A DNA stretch of 64,000 nucleotides from Natrinema ejinorense (GTDB lineage: Archaea > Halobacteriota > Halobacteria > Halobacteriales > Natrialbaceae): assembly GCF_002494345.1 (NCBI RefSeq), contig NZ_NXNI01000001.1:3224001-3288000 (forward strand). Reading direction: 5' to 3'. Under the pieces are notes generated by a model. That model was not told the origin of the DNA. It saw nothing but the letters and a program-made list of their open reading frames with translations, and ran no database searches. Both the position numbers and the translations under genes were made by a program. Shown in pieces: positions 21,721 through 50,003 of the stretch; within the stretch, counting starts at the first letter, position 1; each line of letters opens with the position of its first letter.

Positions 21721-21759
21721 CTAGTCCGACGCTTCCGCAGCCGCCAGCGGCTCGATCGC
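21721..21759 (-). repeat. Duplicated 3' end of ileS
   Basis: These 39 bp are identical to 21899-21937, the last codons and stop of ileS. Read on the minus strand in the same frame it encodes EMAIEPLAAAEASD and a stop, versus MEIAIEPLAAAEASD in the gene. Beyond 39 bp the copies drift apart. The two copies are 178 bp apart in direct orientation. Confidence 0.9.
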
Positions 21760-21898
21760 CATCTCGGCATCCACCTTTTTCTCGTCGGATTCGCTCGCAC
21801 ACTCGCACATCCCTCCTCGAAAAATCTGGACCAAAAAGCAGAACGGTCGGCTTCTCCTCCCGTTCTGGGAGTATCCCCTTGCAAACGCTTGCCAGACG
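21760..21898. repeat. Insert between the two ileS 3' ends
   Basis: This 139-bp segment has CCACCTTTTT at 21771-21780 and the core AAAAATCTGGACCAAAAA at 21820-21837, 49 nt further on. The same two blocks with nearly the same spacing (50 nt) lie next to pheT at 54550-54617. There is no ORF of its own. It could be a small insertion element that brought a copy of the target's 3' end with it. Confidence 0.7.
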
Positions 21899-24800
21899 CT
21901 AGTCCGACGCTTCCGCAGCCGCCAGCGGCTCGATCGCGATTTCCATCGTCACACCGTCGACGTCCCACTCCTTGCGGTGGCCGTCCTCGACCGGGCGGCG
22001 TTCGTCGGCTCGAACCTCCCCGCTGATCAGCTCCTCGCGCTCGGCGACGAGGTCGGCGATCCGGTCGTCGTCGATCGCGAACTCGAGTGCGATCCGTTCG
22101 TCGACGTCGAGTTCGAGGTCCTTGCGCATCTCCTGGACGCGGCGGATGACCTCGCGGGCGTACCCCTCGCTCTCGATGTCGTCGGTCAGCGAGGCGTCGA
22201 CGTAGGCGACGCCGCGGTCGTCGCCGTCGGTGCTAAACGCGGTGCCGGCGACGCTGTCGGGCGTCTGCGTGACGAACGAAACCATCTCGTCGGAGATCGA
22301 TTCGCCGTCCTCGAGCACGTCCGCGACGGCGTCCTCGATCGCCTCGAGGCTCGGCTCGTCGATGCGAGCCTCGTTGAGCGCGTTCATGACCTGCCCGGCG
22401 CGGTCGCCGAAGGCCGGACCGAGTTCGCTCATGTCCGCTTCGGCGCTGTACTGGAGTTCCTCCCAGCGGGCGTCCGGCGAGACCAGTTCGATCTCGCGGG
22501 CGTTGAGCCGATCCTCGAGCAGGTCGGTGTGGCGGGAAACGGCGTCGACGACGCGCTCGTCGTCGGCCGCGACGACGACCCGCGGAACGGGCCAGCGAAG
22601 CTTGCGGCCGGCCTGCTGGCGGGCGTTCGCGCCGGCCTCCTCGATCGCGCGGAGGATGGCGACGTCGACCTCGAGCTGTTCGTCCTCCCAGTACTCGTCG
22701 ACTGCGGGCCAGTCTTCCATGTGGACGGTGTCGAACCCGTCGTCGCCGGTCAGCGTGCCGTAGATCTGCTCGCTGATGAACGGCGCATAGGGTGCGAGCA
22801 GCGCGACGCTCTCCCGGAGCACCCGATAGATCGTCGCGTAGGCGGCCCGTTTCGAGCCGCTGTCCTCCTCGGCCCACATGCGTTCGCGGACCGCCTGGAC
22901 GTAGAACCGGGAGACGTCCTCGACGACGAACTCGATGAGCGCCTCGAGCGCGCGGTCCTGCCGGCGGTCCTCGAAGGCCTCGGTCATCGCCGCCTTCGTG
23001 GACTGCAAGCGGGCGAGCACCCACTCGTCGATCAACTCGAGGTCGGAATCGACATCGTCCAGCGTCGTCTCCTGCGGGTCGAACTCGTCGAGTCGCATGT
23101 ACGGCAGCGGGAACCGGAAGACGTTCCACAGCGTCCGGAGGTGGTTCTCCATCGTCTGCATCCCGTCCCAGTCGAAGCGCATGTCCTCGCCTTGCGGGTT
23201 GTTCGAGAGGAGGAACATGCGCATCACGTCCCGGCCGTGGCGGTCGATCGCCTCGTGGGGGTCGATCAGGATGTCCTTGGACTTGCTCATCGCGCGACCG
23301 TCGGGCATCAGCGCGTGGCCGTGCATCAGGACCTCCTGATAGGGGCTCTCGCCCAGCGCGGCGGTACTCATTCCCAGCTGGGACCAGAACCAGCCCCGGG
23401 TCTGGTCGTGGGCCTCGAGGATGAAGTCGGCGGGCCAGAGCTCGTCGAACGTGCTGTCGTCCGAGGGGTAGTTCAGGGTACCCCACGATGCAACCGAGGC
23501 GTCGAGCCAGACGTCGAAGACATCGGGAACGCGGGTATAGGTGGTCCCGTTCTCGGTGATCGTGAGGTCGTCGACGGTTCCCTTGTGGAGGTCGACCGTC
23601 TCGGGATCGATGTCTTGATCGACGCGTTCGGCGAGTTCCTCGCGCGTCCCGATGACGATCATGTCTTCGTCGTCGTCACGGTCCTCGGGCGTCCAGACCG
23701 GGAGCGGGGTCCCCCAGTAGCGCTGCCGGGAGACGTTCCAGTCGGGTGCCTCCTCGACGAAGTCGCGAAACCGGTTGTTGCGAGCCCAGTCGGGATGCCA
23801 CTCGCTGTCGCCGATGTTCGCGAGGAGGTCGTCTTTGACGTCCGTAACCGTGATGAACCACTGATCGGTGACGATCTGGAGCACGCCGGTGTCACACCGC
23901 CAGCAGTGGCCGTAGCTGTGGTTGACGGTCCCCGACGCGAGGAGCGCGCCGTTGTCCTCGAGGTCGGCTATGATCTCGTCGTCGGCGTCTTTGACGAACC
24001 GACCCGCGTACTTGCCGGCTTCCTCGGTGTAGACGCCGTCGCCGCCGACGGGACAGAAGATCGGGAAGCCGAGTTCGCGACCGCGCTCGAAGTCCACCTC
24101 ACCGTGACCGGGCGCGGAGTGGACCAGCCCGGTGCCGTCGCCGTGCGTGTCGACGTAGTCGGCGTCGTAGACCTCGAACGCGCCCTCGGCGTCGACGTGG
24201 TCGGGCACCTCCTCCGCGAGGGGGTGCTCGTAGGACCAGCCGATCAGTTCCTCGCCGGTGACTTCCGCTACCACCTCGTAGTCGTCGTAGCGGCCCTCTT
24301 TCAGAACGTCTTCGTGTTTCGCGTCGGCGAGGTAGAGGAGTTCCTCCTCGCCATCCTTTTGGGCGCGCACGCCGACGTAGTCGCCGTCCTCGTCGACGGC
24401 GACGAAGGTGTTCGCCGGAACCGTCCACGGGGTCGTCGTCCAGATGACGAGTTTCCCGTCCCGGTCCTCGAGATCGAACTTGACGTAGATCGAGGGATCC
24501 TCGACGTCCTCGTACTCGACCTCGTTGTTCGCGATGGCAGTCTCACAGCGTGGACACTGCGAAATCGACCGGTTGCCTTTCTCGACTAAGCCGCGGTCGG
24601 CGGCCTTCGAAAAGCCCCACCAGGCCGCTTCCATGTACTCCGGGTTGACCGTCTTATAGGGGTCGTCCCAGTCCATCCAGACGCCGAAGTCCTGGAAGTC
24701 CTCCTGGAGCCCCTCGAGTTGCTCGTTGGCGTAATCCTTGCACTCCTGGATGAAGTTCTCCTCGCCGAACTCCTCGATGTCTTTCTTGTTCTCGAAGCCC

Positions 24801-25105: not shown

Positions 25106-25425
25106 GTGTATCTCATCTCACTCCGAAACTAAATGGCGTTCGATCCTGCAGGTGGCCGGGGAACGGGACGGGCGGGTTCCGAGGCGATCACCAGTTTCAG
25201 GGGCCGTCGCCGAACGCATCCGCAGCGAACCGCTCGTCCCGACGCTCGCGTCGCCGTTCGCTATCCCGTTCCGACGTGCGAACCGCCTGGGCCATCCCCG
25301 GTATATTCAAATAACATGAAGGCATAGTAACTAATACCAACACTAGTCGAGGAAGGAAATATCGATGTCCAATACGATCGAATCGGCCCGTACAGTGCCA
25401 CACCCGACCAGAACCACGTCGTCTC
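25106..25425. promoter_or_regulatory. Divergent intergenic region, ileS / HTH_10 regulator
   Basis: This 320-bp gap holds the ileS promoter (minus strand TATA near 25126-25133) and an AT-rich stretch around 25305-25365 that probably carries the promoter of the HTH_10 regulator. No clear TATA at the leaderless distance is seen for that regulator, so it may have a longer leader. No RNA gene was found. Confidence 0.45.
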
Positions 25426-26064
25426 ATGTGTTCACAGCTTCGAGCACGGGTCAAGGTGACTGATCCGACCGGGTGTCCGCTCGCTTCGATCGGGGACGGA
25501 GCCGACGATGTCCGACTGCTCTCGCGAACGATCGACCGGAGCGGGCAGCGAATAGATCTGCTCGCGTCGGAGCGCAATCTCTCGACCGAACACGACGCGA
25601 TCAGTCCACAGTTTTCCTACGGAACGACGACCGTCTACCGGTTGGAAACGGACGCAAGCGAGTGCGTCTGTCGGTCCCCCGAACACTCCGGAGTGCCGAT
25701 CGAGCGCGTCGACGTCACCGACGATGGACTGTGCTACACCATCTACCCGTCCTCGCTCGAGGAGTTAGAGGACGTACTGTCGGCGCTCCGGCTGCACGCC
25801 GAGTCCGTCAAACTGGTTCAACTCGTCCGTGACGATGCCGACCTCGAGGAGGAAGCATATCGAGTACTCGACGTTACCCGGTTGACGGACCGACAACGAG
25901 AGGTCCTTCGAACTGCCTACCGGATGGGATACTTTTCGTACCCGCGCGAAACGACCGCTCGAGAAGTCGCCGAGGCGCTCGATATCGCACCGAGTACCGT
26001 TCACAAGCACCTCGTGGCTGCGCTTGGGTCGGTTCTCGAATCCCTGTACGGAACCGAACGGTGA
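25426..26064 (+). CDS. HTH_10 (Bat-type) transcription regulator
   Basis: A 212-residue protein. The C-terminal HTH_10 domain (about 152-208) has the usual LTDRQREVLRTAYRMGYF...TTAREVAEALDIAPSTVHKHL pattern. The N-terminal half is the variable sensor part found in bacterioopsin-activator-like proteins and has a CVCRSP Cys pair that might respond to redox or metal. It stands 150 bp upstream of the peptide/radical SAM genes in the same direction and is the natural candidate for their regulator. Confidence 0.88.
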   Translation: MCSQLRARVKVTDPTGCPLASIGDGADDVRLLSRTIDRSGQRIDLLASERNLSTEHDAISPQFSYGTTTVYRLETDASECVCRSPEHSGVPIERVDVTDDGLCYTIYPSSLEELEDVLSALRLHAESVKLVQLVRDDADLEEEAYRVLDVTRLTDRQREVLRTAYRMGYFSYPRETTAREVAEALDIAPSTVHKHLVAALGSVLESLYGTER

Positions 26065-26149
26065 CATCTATAGGCCACGTCGTGCCGTCCTCCTCCAGAG
26101 CGGGACGGTCTCTCGCCGCCGGAGTGGGAGATCGACGTTCCAGGGGGGC

Positions 26150-26157
26150 ATATAAAA
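26150..26157 (+). promoter_or_regulatory. TATA box of the peptide/radical SAM cassette
   Basis: ATATAAAA after a run of G is the clearest TATA box in the block. Transcription would start near 26180, giving a short leader of about 35 nt before the peptide ATG at 26214. This promoter separates the cassette from the regulator gene. Confidence 0.65.
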
Positions 26158-26213
26158 CGGCGAAACTATTGCAGAAGAATCCAACTCGAACCAGGCAGTA
26201 CATTCACTTGCCC

Positions 26214-26321
26214 ATGTCAGGGTTCGAAAACGCCGAAACCGAGTTCGTCGACGAAGCGCTCAGCGAGACGAAAAAAGAGGCCGCGGACCATCAGGCCAAG
26301 CTTCCGACGTTCTTCTACTGA
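26214..26321 (+). CDS. Candidate RiPP precursor peptide (35 aa, ends F-F-Y)
   Basis: A 35-residue peptide: an acidic helix-like leader (MSGFENAETEFVDEALSETK), a charged linker and the C-terminus KLPTFFY. It follows a strong TATA box and precedes a radical SAM gene whose N-terminus resembles the PqqD/RRE peptide-binding domain, the standard order for PqqA- or MftA-like precursors. A C-terminal aromatic triplet ending in Tyr resembles MftA, where the last Tyr is decarboxylated and crosslinked, and PqqA, whose Tyr becomes the cofactor. No named family was recognised. The peptide is short enough to be missed by routine gene calling. Confidence 0.72.
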   Translation: MSGFENAETEFVDEALSETKKEAADHQAKLPTFFY

Positions 26322-26376
26322 GGTCCGCCCAACGGTCGTATCGCCAGCCAACTGCGCTTCCCGCTGTTTCGAACCA

Positions 26377-27741
26377 ATGACCGAGACACAACTACGGTTG
26401 ACGGACGGGTATTTCCTGAAAGGCGGCAACGATGAGTACGTCCTCTTCCATTTCGACGAAGAGGAGACACAACAACTCACGGTGAACCAATACGAGGTGT
26501 TGCGACAGCTCCAGCAGGGAACCGGCGTCGGTTCGGTGGTAGAGACGTTCGACCCCGACAGTCGAGATCACGTCAGGGAGTTCCTCGAGTTCCTCCGAGA
26601 GGAGGGTGTTCTCCACGAAAGCGAGTCCCCACCCGAGGAGGTTCCCCCGCCAGTCGACATGCCTCGTCTCAAGTTCGCCCATCTCGACATCACGGAAGGG
26701 TGTAACATCGCCTGTACCCACTGCTATCAGGAACCATACCTCCATCAGGGGGAGGGGCTGTCGATGGACCGGATCAGACGGTTGGTCAACGAGTTGTACT
26801 GGATGAACGTCGAGTCAGTCATCATCTCCGGCGGTGAGCCGTTCACGCGACCGGATCTGTTCGATATCATCGACTCGATCGAGGAGCGATACATACGCAT
26901 CCAGGACATCCTGACCAACGGAATGTTGATCACCGAGGAGACGATCGAGGCGATCCGCACACTGCGTAGCTCGCCGAACATCGTCATCTCACTCAATGGA
27001 CTCACTCCGGACTCCGACGACGCCATCAGAGGGGAGGGAACGAACGAGGCCTGTCGACGCGGGCTCGAGCGCGTCGCCGACTCCGAGGTCGAAGCGCACG
27101 TCTGTAGCGTCGCGACGACCCTGAATCTCGAGGAGTTACCCGAGATGTACGACTACGTCACCGACCTCGGAGTGAGTCGCTGGCGCATCGGCCTCGCACA
27201 GGTCGAACCCGACGCGACCGACGACGGCTACTTCGAAATCGACCTCGAGGAGTACCAGTCCGTCGGCAAAGAGATCGTCGAGAAACACCTCGAAACGGAC
27301 ACGGAGATGAGTCTCAACGTCGAAGGGCTGTTCAAACAGGAGGTGTTCGAGTTCGGCTACTCCGAGTACGAACCGGACTCGACCATCTGTCGGTACAACG
27401 AACGAAGCTGTTGTGTGAAACCCGACGGAACCGTCACCCCCTGTACGCTCCTTCACGACTACGACTGCGGCGACGTGACCGAGGAGCGACTCGAGGAGGC
27501 GTGGACAGGTGAGGCCATGCGGGAGTTCAAAGGGACGACCGTCTCGGAGGTCGCTCCGGACGACTGTCGAACGTGTGATGCACTGGAGTACTGTGGCGGC
27601 GGCTGCCGGTGGTGGTCCTGGAACGTCGACGAGACGCTTGCCGGACGGGACCCGCGCTTCTGCCAGAACATGCAGTACTTCGTCGACGAAATCCTCCCGA
27701 TGGTCGAGGAGCGAACCGGAATGGAGCCGACGCCACTGTAA
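26377..27741 (+). CDS. Radical SAM/SPASM protein with N-terminal PqqD/RRE-like domain
   Basis: A 454-residue enzyme. Residues ~5-85 have the strand/helix pattern of PqqD-like RiPP recognition elements (LTDGYFLKGGNDEYVLF...LTVNQYEVLRQL). The radical SAM cluster is C109-x3-C113-x2-C116 in EGCNIACTHCYQE; the SAM site has SGGEP (about 150). The C-terminal SPASM domain holds the extra Fe-S cysteines (CCVKPDGTVTPC, CRTCDALEYCGGGC). This architecture is typical of peptide-modifying maturases (PqqE, MftC, AlbA-like). It should act on the peptide encoded 55 bp upstream. Confidence 0.88.
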   Translation: MTETQLRLTDGYFLKGGNDEYVLFHFDEEETQQLTVNQYEVLRQLQQGTGVGSVVETFDPDSRDHVREFLEFLREEGVLHESESPPEEVPPPVDMPRLKFAHLDITEGCNIACTHCYQEPYLHQGEGLSMDRIRRLVNELYWMNVESVIISGGEPFTRPDLFDIIDSIEERYIRIQDILTNGMLITEETIEAIRTLRSSPNIVISLNGLTPDSDDAIRGEGTNEACRRGLERVADSEVEAHVCSVATTLNLEELPEMYDYVTDLGVSRWRIGLAQVEPDATDDGYFEIDLEEYQSVGKEIVEKHLETDTEMSLNVEGLFKQEVFEFGYSEYEPDSTICRYNERSCCVKPDGTVTPCTLLHDYDCGDVTEERLEEAWTGEAMREFKGTTVSEVAPDDCRTCDALEYCGGGCRWWSWNVDETLAGRDPRFCQNMQYFVDEILPMVEERTGMEPTPL

Positions 27742-27743
27742 GC

Positions 27744-28712
27744 ATGAACGGGCCGGCCAACATCACGCTCGAGGTGACGAACCAGTGTCACCTCGATTGC
27801 GATCACTGTTACCTCGAAACGAACCGGAACCTCGACGAACTGTCCGTCGACGAGATCGAGGCGTGTTTGCTCGCCCATCTGGAGACCCACGACGTCGAAT
27901 CGTTCGTAATTACGGGCGGCGAACCGCTGTTGCGGCCCGACATCGACGAGATCTGTGAGATGATCGCTCCCCGCGTCGAGGAACTGCGGCTCCTGACGTC
28001 GCTTTCGACGCGGGACGCGGGCTCACTCGTGGCCGAGCTCCCGATAGACGCTCTCAACGTCTCCGTCGATGGGCCACGAGCGCGACACGACGCCATCAGA
28101 GGGGAGGGGACGTTCGATCGCGTCCTCGAGAACCTGCGGCGGATCGATCGGTCTCGATTGAACGAAGTCTATCTCAACTGTGTCGTCTCCTCGTACAACG
28201 AGGAGGCGTTTCCGGACGTTCTCGAGGCGGTCGATCCCCTCGCCGACACGGTCGGGTTTCAGCTCCAGACGTGGGCGCGACCGGACGACGTCGCTCGCTC
28301 GGCCGAGCGACTCGACTGCGACGAAGGGACCTTTATGCTGCCAGCGGTGCCGGACCATCCGGCAACCCCGTCGACCGTCACGGAGAACGTACAAGAGGTA
28401 CGGGAACGGGGCGAACGATCGTCGACGACGGTGCGGGTGTTCCCGCCCGGGATATCCGACGCTGTGATCCACGAGTGGTTCGGAAGCGGAGAGCGAGAAC
28501 AGATGCGGGGCTGTCAGACGATTTATCGGCGTCCGCTCGTCGGTCCCGAAGGCGATGTCTATCCCTGTCCGTTCGTCCGACAGTCGATGGGGAACGTTCG
28601 CGACGAACCGTTGTCCGAGATTTGGACGGGACGGTCCATCGAACAGTTTCGGCAGCGGCTCTCGGAAACGGGGCTTCTTCCGATCTGCAGTCGGTGTGCC
28701 TGTAGCGCGTGA
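27744..28712 (+). CDS. Second radical SAM protein with SPASM-like C-terminus
   Basis: A 322-residue enzyme starting two bases after the first maturase stops. The cluster motif is C15-x3-C19-x2-C22 (NQCHLDCDHCYLE), with TGGEPLLRPD for SAM binding. The C-terminus has further cysteines (GCQTIYRR, VYPCPFV, ICSRCACSA) that could hold one auxiliary cluster. It lacks the N-terminal recognition domain, so it may work after or with the first enzyme. Two maturases on one precursor suggests a multi-step modification. Confidence 0.87.
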   Translation: MNGPANITLEVTNQCHLDCDHCYLETNRNLDELSVDEIEACLLAHLETHDVESFVITGGEPLLRPDIDEICEMIAPRVEELRLLTSLSTRDAGSLVAELPIDALNVSVDGPRARHDAIRGEGTFDRVLENLRRIDRSRLNEVYLNCVVSSYNEEAFPDVLEAVDPLADTVGFQLQTWARPDDVARSAERLDCDEGTFMLPAVPDHPATPSTVTENVQEVRERGERSSTTVRVFPPGISDAVIHEWFGSGEREQMRGCQTIYRRPLVGPEGDVYPCPFVRQSMGNVRDEPLSEIWTGRSIEQFRQRLSETGLLPICSRCACSA

Positions 28713-28730
28713 CCGTGCGATACAAGCCCG

Positions 28731-29777
28731 CTACAGGCCATCGGCCCCGATCGTCGAGAGCAGTTCCGCGAGCAACTCGACCGTCGTTTCGACATCACTG
28801 CGATCGACTACCTCGACCGGTGTATGAAGATTGCGCGTGGGAAATCCGAGATGGAGGGTCGGGACCGGACCACACGCCGCGGCGAAAACGTCCGCATCCG
28901 TCCCCGTCCCGACGGGCGTCGCCTGGAGTTGAATCGATCGGTCGATGGAGTCGGCGGCCGATCTCGCGGCCGTAACCAGCCGCTGGTGGTTGCCGCCGCC
29001 GCGGGCGACGACCGGCCCGCCGCCGAGCGTGATCTCGTTCCCGACTGCCGTCGGTGCGGCCGGCGCGTCCGTCGCGATCGCCGCGTCGACGACGATCACG
29101 GCGTCGACATCGTACTCGGCCGTCACCATCTCTGCACCGCGTCGACCGATCTCCTCCTGGACGGTACTCACGCCAAGGACGGTCGTCTCGGTCGTCGTCA
29201 CTGCGGCGTGACGGACGACTTCCGCGACGACGTACGCGCCGATCCGGTTGTCATGGCAGCGCGCGGCGATCCGTCCGTTGGCGAGTGTCGCCGGCTCTGC
29301 AGCGATCGTCACCGGATCACCCACGGCGACGCGAGTGCGCGCGTCGGCCCGGTCGTGGGCACCGATGTCGATCCGCAATTCCGTCGGATCGGTGAGTTGG
29401 GTGGCGCTCCAGTCACGCATTTCAGTCGGCGTATGGACGACCACCCCGGTAACGTCGTCATCGGCCGCGTGAACGGTGACGCGCTGTCCGCGTGCGCAGA
29501 CGCCATCGACTGCTCCGACACCGCCGACGTGAAGATATCCACGGTCATCGATCCGTCGCACGACGTATCCGACCGCATCGATGTGGCTCGTCACCGCCAC
29601 AGTCGTCGATCCGTCGCCATCAACCCTCGCGACAGCGTTGTCGTATGGGTCCGTCTCGACCGCGTCGACGCGCCCTGTGACGTGGTCGATCCACACGCGC
29701 TGACACCTCGATTCGTATCCGGAAACCCCCGGCGTCTCGAGCAATTCGTCTAGTAATCCGTCACGTTCCAGTTCCAT
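28731..29777 (-). CDS. M42-family aminopeptidase
   Basis: A 348-residue dinuclear metal peptidase of the M42 (glutamyl aminopeptidase / endoglucanase-like) family. The metal and catalytic residues are present: H65, D176, E208/E209, D231 and H318. The enzyme removes N-terminal residues from peptides. It faces the radical SAM genes with 18 bp between stops, so it is not in their operon. It could trim the modified peptide, as peptidases do in PQQ and mycofactocin pathways, but may just be a housekeeping peptidase. A TATA-like GAAATAAC lies ~27 nt before its ATG. Confidence 0.88.
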   Translation of the reverse strand: MELERDGLLDELLETPGVSGYESRCQRVWIDHVTGRVDAVETDPYDNAVARVDGDGSTTVAVTSHIDAVGYVVRRIDDRGYLHVGGVGAVDGVCARGQRVTVHAADDDVTGVVVHTPTEMRDWSATQLTDPTELRIDIGAHDRADARTRVAVGDPVTIAAEPATLANGRIAARCHDNRIGAYVVAEVVRHAAVTTTETTVLGVSTVQEEIGRRGAEMVTAEYDVDAVIVVDAAIATDAPAAPTAVGNEITLGGGPVVARGGGNHQRLVTAARSAADSIDRSIQLQATPVGTGTDADVFAAACGPVPTLHLGFPTRNLHTPVEVVDRSDVETTVELLAELLSTIGADGL

Positions 29778-30051
29778 CCGTCGATAACACCCGTCTACGT
29801 TATTTCACTGGATAAACGGTGCGGTAATTACTAATGTGTGTTTCCGAACGGCTTCGGCAAGCCGTCGACGAAGCAAGTAGTACCATCCGCACGGACGCGC
29901 CGTGGCTCCCGTACTCGAAGACCGAATCAGGGGCGACCGCGTGATCCCTCGCCATCACCAACTCGAGACCCCGTGTTCCGCTCGCAACCGCTCATACGGT
30001 TTGCTGTCCCGATATGCCGGTCCCACCGGCACTGACGGACAGGAGACCGCC

Positions 30052-43809: not shown

Positions 43810-44200
43810 CGGTTACGCTCCCCTCGAGGACCGTCACGAGGGCGACCGCCCGGTTCGTCGCCCGGTATTTCTTCCAGCGGCCGTCCTTGTCGGCGTCGAC
43901 GAGCCCCGCATCGACAAGTGCCGAGAGCGCGTGGCTGAGCCCGCTCTCGCTGACGTCGACGACCGCGTTCAGTTCGCAGACACAGAGTTCCTCCTCGGCC
44001 GCGACGAGAACGCGGACGAGCGTGTACCGGGTCTCGTTTGCCAGCGCCGAGAGCACGTCGAGTTCGGCCGAGACCCGATCACCGCCGAGCGCCGCCTCCA
44101 GCGTCTCGAGTTCTTCGAGCCGCTGTTCGACGTCCTCGCTGCGACACACCTCGAGTTCGTCCTCGAGATACCGCCGTAACCGGTCCGTCGCTTGTGCCAT
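43802..44200 (-). CDS. arsR: ArsR-family arsenical-responsive repressor
   Basis: A 132-residue winged helix protein. The metalloid site ELCVCEL (C73, C75) is the classic As(III) ligand pair; C19 near the N-terminus could be a third thiol. The recognition helix follows (SESGLSHALSALVDAGLV). It should repress its own operon and release on arsenite. The TATA (TTAATT, 44225-44230, minus strand) is 27 nt before the ATG. Confidence 0.93.
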   Translation of the reverse strand: MAQATDRLRRYLEDELEVCRSEDVEQRLEELETLEAALGGDRVSAELDVLSALANETRYTLVRVLVAAEEELCVCELNAVVDVSESGLSHALSALVDAGLVDADKDGRWKKYRATNRAVALVTVLEGSVTDA

Positions 44201-44220
44201 CGGCGTATAGTTGAAAAAAC

Positions 44221-44273
44221 ACTCAATTAATAGTTTCGATGGGTTTCTATATATCGGACAGTTCCGACATATA
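44221..44273. promoter_or_regulatory. ars promoter and candidate ArsR operator
   Basis: TATA near 44223-44230 on the minus strand. Upstream of it at 44250-44273 is a dyad: TCGGA-CAGT-TCCGA inside a TATA...CATATA frame. It is a good candidate for a dimeric repressor site, though ArsR sites more often overlap the TATA. Confidence 0.45.
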
Positions 44274-44917
44274 GCCGGTACGGGAGGGGGACCGATAGTA
44301 ACGAGGTAATTCGATTGAAGGATTAGTCAATCGTAGTGGGCCGGATTTTCCCTGCATCAGTCCCGTTCGACGGGTACAGTAGCCGCTGAACGGGAAGAAT
44401 ACGCCCTCGCGAGTGAGCGGCAAGCGACCCCGGCGCTGGCCGGACAGCGGCAAACGGTGTGTCACTCGTTGCAGCGACTACGAGCCGCTGCGAACTGAAC
44501 CCGGTCGGCTCTCCCCGTGGTACAACTCCTCGAGATCACAACCCTCGCTGGAACTGGCCTCGGCACCGCAGCCGCTGCTGACTGCCCGGAATCACGCCAA
44601 AAACCGCTGCACTCGAGCGTACTGCCGCCACACACATTCGGACGGCTGAACGGTCAGAGGCACAAGCGGACAAACTCGGAGAACGTGCAGACAACATGGT
44701 CGGCGGTGGAGGCAGCCCAGGTGGAAACACCGGCCAACAGCCGAAACAGACAGTCTACTTATTGTTCCGACGCCGTTCACTCCTTCACCGCTACCGAACG
44801 GACAACGCTCCTCGTAGATCAGACGACCTTCGTGCTGCTTTCGCGCGCTCTTCGACGGCTCAGCGATCTACCACAACACAGTCACAGATAGCGCGCTGAA
44901 TACAGAGTATGGGCCTT
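44274..44917. other. Unassigned 644-bp stretch before the IS element
   Basis: No credible gene. Codon bias is not haloarchaeal-like in any frame; short open frames carry few acidic residues. One frame around 44660-44730 reads like the end of a Gly-rich protein but has no start. It is probably decayed or foreign sequence beside the IS copy. Confidence 0.5.
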
Positions 44918-45838
44918 GTTTAGACGCGTAAGATCAGTGGTGTTAGAGCCTCACAGCGTGCTCGATGTTTCTGACCGCGGTCTTTAAAACGGGTTCTCTG
45001 AACTGGCCAAGCCACGTTCTAGCCCGCAACGTCTCGCCGAACCGACGTTTCAGTGCGAAGAAAACCGCTTCGACGATCGAGCGGCGGTGATAGACGTTCT
45101 CGTCGTGGCGAGCGTTGTGTGCTTTGTCGAGGGCGTAGAACTCTCGATGTTTGATCACCGGGCGGATTCCAGCAGCCCTGAGTTCGTGCCGGAGCGCGTC
45201 CCAGTCGTCGCTTTTGTCGGCGGTAATCGTGGCGAGTTGGATGAGATTTCTCGTGAGCACCTGTCTTCCAATATATATATCGTGCGGCTGTTTCATCGCG
45301 CAACGAATGTCTAGAATGACGCTGGTATCGCAATCGACGAGCGCTGTCGTCTTGATATCGTCAAAATTGTAGCCGATCCGGAGGACGTAGTGACGGCTGA
45401 CTTGATCGCGTTTGAAGCCGGTTGCGTCGATCGCCTGCGTCGCCGAGCTCGTGCAGCGAGACAGACAGCCGCAGCAACACCCGCCAGATCCGCATTGTCA
45501 GCTCCCGTTTCCGTGTACAGACGGTTGTGAAATCCGGTAGCTGATCCACCGCAGGGTCGAGTTTCGCGGCGATTCTGGGCATCTCATGCAGAATGTCGAG
45601 CAACCGGCGGTACGGCTGGTTCAGGTACTCTCGAAGACAGTGAATCGGGACAATCACCCAGTCAGCATAGCCGCCGTTACCTTTCCTGACCGCCGGTGCT
45701 GGCTCGCCAGTGACAGCGTTCTGGGACAAATCGACACATCGGTCGGTAAACCGGGCGAGTTGAGACGGCATACTCGCCGCTTCCTCACTCACCTCCATGT
45801 AATCCCGGTCAAGACGGCAACTGAGCAGCGTCTAAACG
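44918..45838 (-). mobile_element. IS5-like insertion element, inactivated
   Basis: About 921 bp bounded by short inverted ends GTTTAGACGC (44918-44927) and its complement (45829-45838). It holds one transposase gene with a frameshift. The sizes fit IS5-type haloarchaeal elements. The target duplication could not be fixed by eye. Confidence 0.7.
44943..45798 (-). pseudogene. IS5-like transposase, single frameshift
   Basis: The N-terminal part (45798 down to about 45440) and the C-terminal part (about 45446 down to 44943) lie in two frames and join smoothly at GELGDA/TQAIDATGF-like sequence near 45440-45446. The C-terminal part has the DDE-type YHRRSIVEAVFFALKRRFG segment. Apart from the shift the protein looks intact, so inactivation is recent, or a programmed frameshift cannot be excluded. 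Confidence 0.75.
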
Positions 45839-45874
45839 TTGCCAAAGACTCCGTTTCCGAAGACACACGTTCAG

Positions 45875-46609
45875 TTAGTCGGCAGCCTGGTCCGCCTGCC
45901 CTGTCTTTTTTATTTGTAGCGGATCGACCGACGAGGTCGCGGTGACCAGTCGCAAGAACTGTCCCGCGTTGGTGAGCAGTTTGTTCTCCGCCTTTCGAAG
46001 GTGTTCCTCGTACGTCGATCGAGCAACGGCCGTCCGATCGGCTAAGTCCCGGAGCGACGTCTTCCGTGGTTGTTCGTAGTATCCACTTTCGAGCGCCAGT
46101 CGAAGCGCCGCCATCTGCCGTTCGGTCACGTCTTCGAACAACTGATCGACCGGAGCCAACATACTGTGAGGGATTTGCTGTTCCGTAATCGCCGTCTTCG
46201 AGAGCACTTCGATATCACGGTCGGTCTCCAAATCGTGATGGAGCGCCTGGATATCACTCTCGTCGAACGCGATGATCGTATAGTGCTCCCAGCCCTGACG
46301 ATGAATCGTCGGCGGCTGGTACAGGCAATTGTACTCCTCGAACCGTTCGATGATCGAACCCTCTAACGAACAGAGACAGGACTGCGTGACGACGTGGAGG
46401 CCGGACTCGTCGATCGATCTGTGGAGGATCGTCCCCAACTGATCGATTTCCTCGAGTAATTCGTCGGCCGGAGATTCCGAGGAGGTGATTTCGATCACTT
46501 GGCAGTCGCTCAGGTACCACTCACGGATCGTGAGGTCCGGGTACTGTTCCGAGATTTCTCGGTACGGACACTCGTGTTTGACCCGAAACGAGGCCTCGTA
46601 AAGGCTCAT
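45875..46609 (-). CDS. HTH_10 (Bat-type) regulator beside sulfur genes
   Basis: A 244-residue regulator with an N-terminal sensor half and C-terminal HTH_10 domain (about 165-225; VTERQMAALRLALESGYYE...TAVARSTYEEHLRKAE). Cysteines in HECPYRE, LSDCQ, and QSCLCS could sense sulfane sulfur or redox. It is divergent from the rhodanese/persulfide dioxygenase gene across 89 bp, the usual layout for a local regulator. ATG 46609 is 27 nt from a TATA-like TTAATTTT. Confidence 0.85.
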   Translation of the reverse strand: MSLYEASFRVKHECPYREISEQYPDLTIREWYLSDCQVIEITSSESPADELLEEIDQLGTILHRSIDESGLHVVTQSCLCSLEGSIIERFEEYNCLYQPPTIHRQGWEHYTIIAFDESDIQALHHDLETDRDIEVLSKTAITEQQIPHSMLAPVDQLFEDVTERQMAALRLALESGYYEQPRKTSLRDLADRTAVARSTYEEHLRKAENKLLTNAGQFLRLVTATSSVDPLQIKKTGQADQAAD

Positions 46610-46698
46610 ACACGTAGAAATGGTCTGAAGAAAATTAACGGTGCCGGTCATGTCCCGCACTACTCATATTCTACTACTTCTCGTACGAGTGACTACCG

Positions 46699-47811
46699 AT
46701 GTCAGAGATACGCCCTGAAAAGCTCAGTGAACGGTTACAGGCCGGCGACGACGGCCTGCTCGTGCTTGATATTCGCCACGAAGAGGAGTACGACGACTGG
46801 CATATTCCGGACAGCGTTAACGTCGACGTCTACGACCAACTAACCGACGACCCGAACGCGGCAAAGGACGCCCTCGGAGACCTTCCAGATGAGATGGAGA
46901 TCGTTACCATCTGTACTGCAGGCATCGTGTCGCAAACCGCAACGGACGTGCTGCAGGAACTCGGGTACGACGCCGAGACGCTCACGGACGGGATGAACGG
47001 CTGGAGTCGTGTCCACCGGCACGCACCCGTTCCTGTTGATCTCGATGACACGCTCGTTCAGGTTGCACGTCCGGGGAAAGGCTGCCTCTCGCACGTCCTC
47101 ATCTCGGACGGAGACGCCGTCGTGTTCGATCCATCGCAGTATCTCGAGGAATACGAAGCGGTTCTCGAGAACTACGACGCCGAACTCGTTGGCGTCTTCG
47201 ACACGCACGCACACGCAGACCACGTTTCGGGCGCTGGGGAACTCGCCGACAGTCACGGCGTGCCGTACTATCTCCATCCCGAGGACGCGCTCGCTATCGA
47301 CGCAACGCCCGTCGAGGAGGGGCAAACCGTGACGGTCGGCCAGCTCGATCTCGGGGTCATCCACACGCCGGGACACAGCGAGGGGAGCGTCTCGTTCGAT
47401 ATCGGTGGTGCAGCGCTAATTACGGGGGATACGCTCTTCCACACGAGCGTGGGTCGCGTCGAACTCGGCGTCGAAGCCGGGATCGAAGACGCCGACGTCG
47501 AAGGAAACGCCGCGACGCTCTACGAAAGCCTCCAGCGGTTGCTGGACCGATCGGACGACACTGTCGTCTTACCGGCGCACGATCCTGGCTCTCCCGATCC
47601 GCCGGTGACGGCGACCCTCGGCGAGGTGAGAGAACGGAACGAGGATCTCGAACGCGACCGTGAGGAATTCGTCCGAGAACTCGCTTCGGACATCCCGGAA
47701 CATCCGCCGAATTTCGAGCGCGTCAAGCGAACCAACGTCGGTCAGGAATCGATTCCTGCAGACGAACTGGCCGATTTGGAACTGGGGCCCAACAACTGCG
47801 CGGCCGAGTAA
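46699..47811 (+). CDS. Rhodanese-persulfide dioxygenase (MBL) fusion
   Basis: A 370-residue fusion: N-terminal rhodanese domain (1-~108, active Cys C72 in ICTAGIVSQ) and C-terminal metallo-beta-lactamase fold (~115-370, DTHAHADH with H170, H172, D174, H175, then HTPGHSEG, ITGDTLF and PAHD). ETHE1-like persulfide dioxygenases oxidise glutathione or other persulfides to sulfite; the rhodanese passes sulfane sulfur. The order here (rhodanese first) is less common than the reverse. A permease follows 3 bp later. Confidence 0.88.
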   Translation: MSEIRPEKLSERLQAGDDGLLVLDIRHEEEYDDWHIPDSVNVDVYDQLTDDPNAAKDALGDLPDEMEIVTICTAGIVSQTATDVLQELGYDAETLTDGMNGWSRVHRHAPVPVDLDDTLVQVARPGKGCLSHVLISDGDAVVFDPSQYLEEYEAVLENYDAELVGVFDTHAHADHVSGAGELADSHGVPYYLHPEDALAIDATPVEEGQTVTVGQLDLGVIHTPGHSEGSVSFDIGGAALITGDTLFHTSVGRVELGVEAGIEDADVEGNAATLYESLQRLLDRSDDTVVLPAHDPGSPDPPVTATLGEVRERNEDLERDREEFVRELASDIPEHPPNFERVKRTNVGQESIPADELADLELGPNNCAAE

Positions 47812-47814
47812 TCA

Positions 47815-49104
47815 ATGGGGACGACAACTGAACTCAAGCAGGGGATCCGCGAGCACCTCGGACAGTTCTCACTGCACGTTCTGTTAGTGTTCGCCACCGG
47901 GCTGACTATCGGGTCCGAGCGCACCGTCGTGCCCGTTCTGGGCGAGGACGTACTCGGCGTCGAGTCCTTTCTGGTCATCGGCTCGTTCGTCGCCTCGTTC
48001 GGGTTCGTCAAGGCCTTGCTCAACCTCTACGCCGGGAAGTGGGGCGAAGAGTACGGCCGCAAGCCAGTCCTCATCCTCGGGTGGGCAACCGCGTTGCCCC
48101 TCCCGGTTATTCTCATCGTCGCTCCCAGTTGGGGCTGGATCACGGTCGGGAACATCCTCCTTGGCATCAACCAGGCACTGACCTGGAGCATGGCGATCAA
48201 CGCCAAAATCGACCTCGCAGGTCCCGACCAGCGCGGTCTCGCAGTCGGTATCGACGAGGCGTTTGGCTACTCCGGCGTCGCCGTCGGTGCGTGGATTACG
48301 GGCGTCATCGCTGGCCAGTGGAGTCTCCGTCCCGAACCGTTCTACTTCCTCGCGGTGGTCGTCGTGCTGGCGTTCCTCATCTCGATCTTCCTGATCACGG
48401 AAACCGTCCAGTACGCACAGGCCGAAGGTGACGATGATCACCACGATGCGGATCTCCCGTTTCGCGAGGTGCTGAAGCGAGCAACGTACGGGGACAGGAC
48501 CTTGTTCGCCGCGGCACAGGCTGGTCACATCGAGAACTTCGTCGATACCCTGTTCTGGATCGCAGTGCCGCTGTATCTCACGAGCCAGGGGCTCGGCATC
48601 GCAGCAGTCGGTGTCGTCGTCGGCGTCCACAGCGCGATGTATTTCCTCCAGATCGCGACCGGAGGGCTTGCAGACCGTATCGGCCGCCGCCCCCCCGTGA
48701 TCTGGGGAATGTTCCTCGCAGGGGCCGGCGTCCTCGGGATGGCGTTCGTCGATGGGTATCTCCCGTGGGCCGCTCTGGCCGCCGCCTCCGGGTTGGGTAT
48801 GGCGTTGCTGTATCCAAACCTGATGACGGTCCCTGGCGACGCAGCCCACCCGACGTGGCGGTCGGCTGGAATGGGCGTGTACCGGATGTGGCGGGACTCC
48901 GGCTACGGAGTCGGTGCGATCTCGATCGGCCTCTCGATGCAGTTCGTGAACGCCGAGGCTGCGTTCTACATGACTGCGATCCTGATGTTCATCTCCGGGG
49001 CGATCGTGTACATCTGGATGGAGGAGACCCACCCCGATTTCGGCACACACGAGCCACCTTCCCCTGCGACAGAAACGCCGACCCGGGCAGTGTCTGAAGA
49101 CTAG
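47815..49104 (+). CDS. MFS transporter in the sulfur module
   Basis: A 429-residue, 12-helix major facilitator with the loop-2 motif GKWGEEYGRKP and a second GGLADRIGRRP in the central half. A short acidic His-rich central loop (EGDDDHHDADLP) is present. It is co-transcribed with the rhodanese/persulfide dioxygenase gene (3-bp gap). It may export sulfite, thiosulfate or another sulfur product; the substrate is not readable. Confidence 0.87.
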   Translation: MGTTTELKQGIREHLGQFSLHVLLVFATGLTIGSERTVVPVLGEDVLGVESFLVIGSFVASFGFVKALLNLYAGKWGEEYGRKPVLILGWATALPLPVILIVAPSWGWITVGNILLGINQALTWSMAINAKIDLAGPDQRGLAVGIDEAFGYSGVAVGAWITGVIAGQWSLRPEPFYFLAVVVVLAFLISIFLITETVQYAQAEGDDDHHDADLPFREVLKRATYGDRTLFAAAQAGHIENFVDTLFWIAVPLYLTSQGLGIAAVGVVVGVHSAMYFLQIATGGLADRIGRRPPVIWGMFLAGAGVLGMAFVDGYLPWAALAAASGLGMALLYPNLMTVPGDAAHPTWRSAGMGVYRMWRDSGYGVGAISIGLSMQFVNAEAAFYMTAILMFISGAIVYIWMEETHPDFGTHEPPSPATETPTRAVSED

Positions 49105-49337
49105 ATTTCGGCAGAAATCGCTTCAGCTGGGTGCTGACTATGCCGTATACCCCTTCTCGTTCGATCGATGCTGAATACGCGACTTCCATCACCTGCTCGT
49201 CCCAAGTCATAGAGAGACACACCCCCGTTTCGACTGTCGAGCAACCGAGGGAGCAGTGTCGCTATCGGAAGCGCAAAAACATGAGACCGAGGTGATGAAC
49301 CGCGCCCCGGCTGTTACCAATCGTTAACTGCTGTTGC
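49105..49337. other. Intergenic gap, nothing assigned
   Basis: This 233-bp stretch separates the MFS gene from the convergent ferredoxin gene. No RNA gene, clear hairpin or repeat was seen. Confidence 0.4.
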
Positions 49338-49727
49338 TTAGATGACGCGGTTCTGCAGGTAGTCGAGGTGTTTCGCGTTGTAGACGATCTTGACCTCGTC
49401 GGTCTCGGCCGATCCGATGCAGGTCAAGCGGACGTTTTTATCCTCGACTTCCTCGTCGGAGAGGATCTGCTGCATGTCCATCTCGATCTCGCCCTCGAAG
49501 ACGATCGCGGCACAGTTCGCACAGGCACCGGCGCGACACGAGAAGGGCCAGTCGTAGCCCTGTGCTTCGGCCGCCTCGAGGATGTATTCGCCCTCGGCGA
49601 CGTCGAGCGTGCCGTAGTCCTCATCGTCGAGGCCAGCGTCGGCAGCCTGTTCGAAGAGGTCGTCGTCGTCCATGTCCCAGCCCTGATCGTCCAGTACTTC
49701 GTAGTTGAGGTATTCTACCGTGGGCAT
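49338..49727 (-). CDS. Halophilic 2Fe-2S ferredoxin
   Basis: A 129-residue plant-type ferredoxin with the extra acidic N-terminal domain known from Halobacterium ferredoxin. The cluster ligands are C64, C69, C72 and C103 (CRAGACANC...TCIG). It serves 2-oxoacid oxidoreductases in haloarchaea. ATG 49727 ([20 protein letters not shown]) is the canonical start. Confidence 0.96.
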
Positions 49728-50003
49728 CATCCGGCGATTCGAGTCCCGCACTGGTATAGCTTGCTGTTCAGTCCTAAATTGTCTTTGAGTCGGAATTGAC
49801 CAATTCGAAGGCAAGAATTCGACAGTTCGTTACAAGAATAGTGGGCAAACGGAAGAGAAAAAGAAATGTCCGAACGTATTCGTAGGGGCGGCGTGTTCCT
49901 TGCCGAATCCAAAATGGCTGACAGTTCTTCCCGCTCGCTCCCGTCGAGGGGACGATACGGGGCCATTACGACAGCGAACCGGTCTCGAAGTTTCGCCAAC
50001 CGA
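49728..50003. other. Gap between ferredoxin and phosphate permease genes
   Basis: No gene seen in 276 bp. The ferredoxin promoter (minus strand, CTTGCTG/AATTGTC-like AT-rich stretch around 49760-49790) is here; nothing else could be assigned. Confidence 0.4.

Follow-up and report, generated by a model that had tools for sequence, protein, structure and literature searches.

The window analysed here, a 64,000-nucleotide stretch of the Natrinema ejinorense genome, carries a 4.9-kb island of five genes encoding a regulator, a 35-amino-acid peptide, two radical S-adenosylmethionine (SAM) enzymes (rSAM1 and rSAM2) and an M42 peptidase, inserted between the start codon of ileS and a core gene for an 82-amino-acid (aa) protein. 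Overall, the best explanation of the island is a biosynthetic system of the kind that makes ribosomally synthesized and post-translationally modified peptides (RiPPs), a reading to which we assign a probability of roughly 0.75; that the genes follow RiPP logic we hold with slightly more confidence. An earlier note on this DNA had proposed a cassette that makes a modified peptide or a redox cofactor. Conservation of the peptide and a predicted fold resembling a RiPP recognition element (RRE) on the adjacent enzyme argue strongly for a modified peptide, and to call the product a redox cofactor is a guess. The same genes were found in one relative, Natronolimnohabitans sp. A-GB9 (hereafter A-GB9), and comparison with that genome underlies much of what follows. 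The features are as follows, in window coordinates.

25106 to 30050, no strand: the whole island, 4.9 kb, from the ileS start codon to the 82-aa core gene, delimited by empty-site comparison with same-genus genomes
25426 to 26064, + strand: HTH_10 transcription regulator with a DmsR_N sensor-like domain, 212 aa (Pfam DmsR_N 1.2e-20, HTH_10 2.1e-20)
26150 to 26157, + strand: TATA box (atataaaa) in front of the peptide gene, 64 bp from its ATG; A-GB9 has aaataaaa with equal spacing
26214 to 26321, + strand: putative precursor peptide of 35 aa, MSGFENAETEFVDEALSETKKEAADHQAKLPTFFY, with a 35-aa orthologue in A-GB9
26377 to 27741, + strand: rSAM1, candidate peptide maturase of RRE-radical SAM-SPASM order, 454 aa (Pfam Radical_SAM 9e-21, SPASM 7e-12)
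26377 to 26625, + strand: RRE-like N-terminal domain of rSAM1, residues 1-83 (AlphaFold2 predicted local distance difference test score [pLDDT] 76; Foldseek E 1.3e-4; VIA Z 10.7)
27744 to 28712, + strand: rSAM2, radical SAM enzyme with a shortened, C-terminally truncated SPASM domain, 322 aa from its ATG (Pfam Radical_SAM 2.3e-22, SPASM 6.7e-12)
28731 to 29777, - strand: M42 aminopeptidase, candidate leader-removing protease, convergent with rSAM2 and 18 bp from it (Pfam M42 1.3e-61)

The peptide gene and its neighbours

The pattern scan that returned A-GB9, and no other relative, covered one genome per species across 84,980 species; it should be noted that short patterns reach close relatives only. 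In A-GB9 the order is regulator, TATA box, peptide, rSAM1, rSAM2 and M42, adjoining ileS, exactly as here. The A-GB9 peptide, MSGFDASETEFVDESFSEAKKEAADHQAKLPVTFY, is also 35 aa long, is 77% identical to the one in the window, and shares with it an invariant C-terminal Phe-Tyr. Because the gene order, the peptide, the 64-bp distance from TATA box to ATG and the 55-bp spacer between peptide and rSAM1 all recur, the arrangement is beyond what chance would give. The survey of homologous radical SAM genes for an upstream peptide, which the earlier note had suggested as a check, found the peptide kept beside them in the sole other carrier; on this one comparison, a conserved gene for a short putative precursor lies next to a modifying enzyme, as expected of a RiPP system.

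Approximate ratios of nonsynonymous to synonymous substitution rates (dN/dS) in this comparison are 0.10 for rSAM1, 0.22 for rSAM2, 0.22 for the regulator and ∼0.30 for the peptide (whose dS of 0.56 comes from too few sites to weigh). Judging by these sequence comparisons, the peptide and both radical SAM enzymes are under purifying selection. The dS of the regulator, rSAM1, rSAM2 and M42 (0.95-1.16) is not below that of the neighbouring genes, ileS (0.53) and one for a 696-aa protein (0.83), and a dS of about 1 for the larger island genes indicates that the two copies parted long ago and have been retained since. Recent transfer between the two carriers was considered and is unlikely for the same reason.

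It could be argued that the small open reading frame (ORF) is incidental, and that the substrate of the enzymes is a different protein or a small molecule. Only two orthologues are known, which suits that idea, but their equal length, identity and dN/dS, their shared promoter and spacer, and the RRE-like fold on the next enzyme all speak against it, and we regard it as very improbable. No NCBIfam precursor-peptide family matched either peptide up to E 10, although short peptides are hard for hidden Markov models (HMMs). Neither peptide contains the cysteine expected of a sactipeptide or ranthipeptide core.

Both enzymes have a CX3CX2C motif and a SPASM domain, with scores above the Pfam cut-offs. 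In rSAM1 the radical SAM motif is C109-x3-C113-x2-C116 and the SPASM cysteines are C338-x12-G-x4-C356 and C397-x2-C400-x5-C406-x3-C410-x18-C429; the A-GB9 protein is 82% identical and all 10 of these cysteines (109, 113, 116, 338, 356, 397, 400, 406, 410 and 429) are invariant. In rSAM2, which is 70% identical in A-GB9, the corresponding residues are C15-x3-C19-x2-C22, C257-x12-G-x4-C275 and, near the protein end, C315-x2-C318-x-C320, again all invariant (15, 19, 22, 257, 275, 315, 318 and 320). Because rSAM2 ends soon after C320, it probably carries fewer auxiliary clusters, to judge from its cysteines. The two enzymes, which may or may not stem from a tandem duplication, group only weakly with each other in a tree (85/30).

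In an NCBIfam scan, every model fell far below its curated cut-off and membership of a named family was rejected, so that the earlier note's failure to place the cassette in one is borne out. The nearest models to rSAM1 were MftC (3e-33), at 115 bits with a cut-off of 265, together with further radical SAM families of peptide or haem type; PqqE scored 74 bits with a cut-off of 381, and ScmE and ScmF were also below cut-off. The individual elements listed in that note were recovered as described: the HTH_10 regulator by its Pfam match, the TATA box and the 35-aa peptide downstream of it at the positions given above, rSAM1 as a radical SAM/SPASM protein with the motif beginning at C109, and a second radical SAM gene starting 2 bp past the rSAM1 stop codon. 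The proposed extent (25426-28712) did not hold, as the convergent M42 gene, beyond 28712, also belongs to the unit.

That M42 gene is supported as part of the unit by its position inside the island boundary and by 75% identity in A-GB9 over 138 aa (up to the end of the A-GB9 contig), but it is only ∼45% identical to the best M42 proteins of relatives. In alignments with solved M42 aminopeptidase structures, the protein has His, Asp, Glu-Glu, Asp and His at the matching positions, which marks it as an intact member of the M42 family; we take these positions to be the catalytic residues and metal ligands.

At the other end of the unit, the regulator is separated from the peptide gene by 149 bp that include the TATA box. 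Its A-GB9 orthologue is in the same place and, at 64% identity, is the least conserved island gene. In principle, this adjacent DmsR_N/HTH_10 protein, which lies inside the island and is conserved along with it, could sense the product as a signal or ligand within the cell. Haloarchaea have many regulators of this type, however, and these do not have to respond to the product; given also the low conservation we consider a signalling role improbable.

A predicted leader-binding domain on rSAM1

The earlier note had described the N-terminus of rSAM1 as PqqD/RRE-like, and this stands at the level of predicted fold but not at that of sequence models. AlphaFold2 models residues 1-96 (pLDDT 76) as a series of strands and then three helices. 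When this model was compared with the PDB using Foldseek, all four matches at E <0.001 were to crystal structures of TbiB1, an RRE protein of lasso-peptide biosynthesis, in complex with leader peptides (E 1.3e-4 to 6e-4; template modelling score, on the target, of at most 0.74). The Z scores from VIA-align were 10.7 for TbiB1, 10.6 for lasso B1, 9.9 for ThcOx, 9.3 for TigE, 8.2 for PqqD, 7.7 for PbtF, 7.5 for SuiB and 7.4 for CteB. Some non-RiPP winged-helix proteins also reach Z ∼8-9.7, so the RRE match rests on the top matches and the setting rather than on Z alone. On the basis of these best matches, the modelled domain appears to have the leader-binding RRE fold that is expected of a RiPP maturase.

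Profile comparison is marginal in its support for an RRE. With hhalign, the score of the domain against a small combined profile of PqqD type beats all of 400 column shuffles.

Several results weigh against a RiPP system and should be kept in view. When only PqqD sequences enter the hhalign comparison, 4 of the 400 shuffles reach the real score. The HMM search of the N-terminus that the earlier note had put forward came back negative, in that no PqqD or other RRE model in Pfam or NCBIfam matched residues 1-100 up to E 10, a weak match to a grasp-with-spasm maturase model (E 0.012) aside. The RRE fold rests on a domain model that was built from two sequences, and the model of full-length rSAM1 is unusable (pLDDT 37). 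With just two carrier genomes, the conservation of the peptide rests on one comparison. Finally, M42 may be merely a neighbour of the cassette, as M42 peptidases are common and the interval beside ileS holds unrelated accessory genes elsewhere.

Island limits and distribution

The limits of the island come from natural empty sites. From the ileS start to the 82-aa core gene is ∼79 bp in a genome of the same species (G024), from which the island is absent, versus 4.9 kb here; in four other same-genus genomes, which also lack the island genes, the gap is ∼94-210 bp. The 4.9-kb unit is a discrete insertion. Its GC content is mildly low (61.6% vs. 65.1%).

The counterpart interval is occupied by other sequence in some genomes. 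In the same-genus genome G047 it holds a different 2.8-kb stretch (L068:9545-12360) with secreted-protein-like ORFs and none of the island genes. On contig C41 of the A-GB9-type assembly G338, it holds 3.1 kb (L070:2555-5680) with an amidohydrolase-like and a secreted-protein-like ORF. Given these unrelated stretches, the interval may be an accessory-gene hotspot at which genes come and go. In assembly G338, ileS occurs twice, on C34 (L071) beside the island and on C41, a small 7.6-kb contig; the two copies are about equidistant from the ileS of the window, and contamination or a second copy would account for them. In the window itself, the 3′ end of ileS including the stop codon (45 bp, 21721-21765) is repeated 178 bp downstream (21899-21943) with 43 of 45 positions identical. 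The repeat is shared with G024 and looks to be an ancient, partial copy of the gene end.

The island is rare. rSAM1 occurs in two of 125 Natrialbaceae genomes (this one and A-GB9) and, at E 1e-60, in one of the 293 genomes sampled from the order (this one). Sampled genomes of the order yielded no further copy of the peptide or of rSAM2. Close homologues were not found on viral contigs or plasmids. Distant matches elsewhere in the phylum were set aside, as they look haem-type, Scm-like or PqqD-fused and do not have an island-like neighbourhood. Two archaeal PqqD-radical SAM-SPASM fusions of the same phylum, probably from methanogens (L011:1438-2814 and L019:1441-2817, both - strand; Pfam PqqD 8e-8 and 2e-8), adjoin a metalloprotease-like ORF and represent an independent RRE-fused radical SAM family. 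None of the archaeal loci examined combined a fused-RRE enzyme with a second radical SAM enzyme and M42.

Presence or absence at the strain level fits an accessory trait of the competition type, and SPASM enzymes often crosslink aromatic residues. The product could thus be a secreted bioactive RiPP, for example halocin-like, with carbon-carbon crosslinks among the TFFY/VTFY aromatics, that is exported against competitors. This is unlikely, however: the core would probably be very short, and the island shows no sign of a transporter, an immunity gene or a secretion signal. Their absence favours an intracellular product, although export by other systems is possible.

Elsewhere in the window, positions 44000-50000 have its lowest GC content (∼57%-61%) and include genes for a rhodanese/metallo-beta-lactamase fusion and a major facilitator superfamily (MFS) transporter; other genomes of the genus have part of this region rearranged or lack it.

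Known systems, mechanism and meaning

The island would work like known radical SAM RiPP systems, with a new combination of parts that falls in no named family. By analogy, the nearest mechanistic model is mycofactocin (MftA-F), in which MftC oxidatively decarboxylates and cyclises the C-terminal Val-Tyr of MftA and MftE releases the core (PMC7491314; see also PMC9062424). Both systems have a short precursor with a C-terminal Tyr, an RRE protein, a SPASM radical SAM enzyme and a peptidase. A specific form of the RiPP reading, possible but still on the unlikely side, is therefore a mycofactocin-like redox cofactor: rSAM1 would oxidatively decarboxylate the C-terminal Tyr and link it to Phe34, rSAM2 would add a second change, and M42 would free the modified end in the manner of mycobacterial MftE. 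MftC being the best-scoring NCBIfam model for rSAM1, the invariance of the terminal Tyr and the Phe before it (cf. the Val-Tyr core of MftA), and a linked peptidase with no transporter in the island are all in its favour. Against it stand the shortfall of rSAM1 from the MftC cut-off, Phe in place of Val, M42 rather than MftE, an RRE fused to the enzyme rather than the separate MftB, two radical SAM enzymes rather than one, and the absence of MftD and MftF counterparts from the island.

Other systems share fewer parts. Pyrroloquinoline quinone (PQQ) biosynthesis (PqqA, PqqD, PqqE) also combines an RRE with a SPASM radical SAM enzyme, and the predicted N-terminal fold of rSAM1 matches PqqD, but the island has no PqqC and the PqqE score is below cut-off. 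PqqA has a Glu-x3-Tyr arrangement, which the island peptide lacks. The RRE-fused maturases TigE, SuiB, CteB and StsB have the same domain order as rSAM1 and RRE folds that align with it, and StsB and CteB also align with it in sequence over part of the RRE. However, identity is low, a Cys-free peptide would preclude a thioether, and these enzymes have no known pairing with such a second enzyme and M42. The SynChlorMet (Scm) system, as represented by archaeal loci L010 and L013 (labelled Scm by eye), likewise has tandem radical SAM/SPASM genes, but rSAM1 and rSAM2 fall outside the group formed by that pair and the island has no ScmC-like gene. A literature search, incomplete in coverage, turned up no radical SAM RiPP pathway that has been characterised from haloarchaea.

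The mechanism that we propose for the island as a RiPP system is as follows. The regulator would switch on the peptide promoter, and the RRE of rSAM1 would grip the N-terminal part of the peptide (the conserved ETEFVDE...KKEAADHQAK stretch, as leader). rSAM1 and then rSAM2, making a second change, would modify the C-terminal LPxxFY, with its invariant Phe-Tyr as the likeliest site, by carbon-carbon crosslinking, mycofactocin-like oxidative decarboxylation or something else. M42 would then remove the leader, working inwards from the N-terminus. A proline ahead commonly blocks aminopeptidases, so the enzyme may stall at the Leu-Pro of LPxxFY, and the small modified peptide released in this way would act inside the cell. 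A bolder proposal, which we consider unlikely, is that the two radical SAM enzymes turn Phe-Tyr into a redox-active or otherwise functional core that M42 releases, which would be a new peptide-derived small cofactor of archaea.

The island is compact, with five genes; a natural empty site within the species marks its limits clearly, and its putative substrate, at 35 aa, can be tested directly. If the RiPP reading is true, RRE-guided radical SAM chemistry would extend to halophilic archaea, with M42 as a possible maturation protease, and a peptide-derived cofactor or signal of a new kind could come to light.

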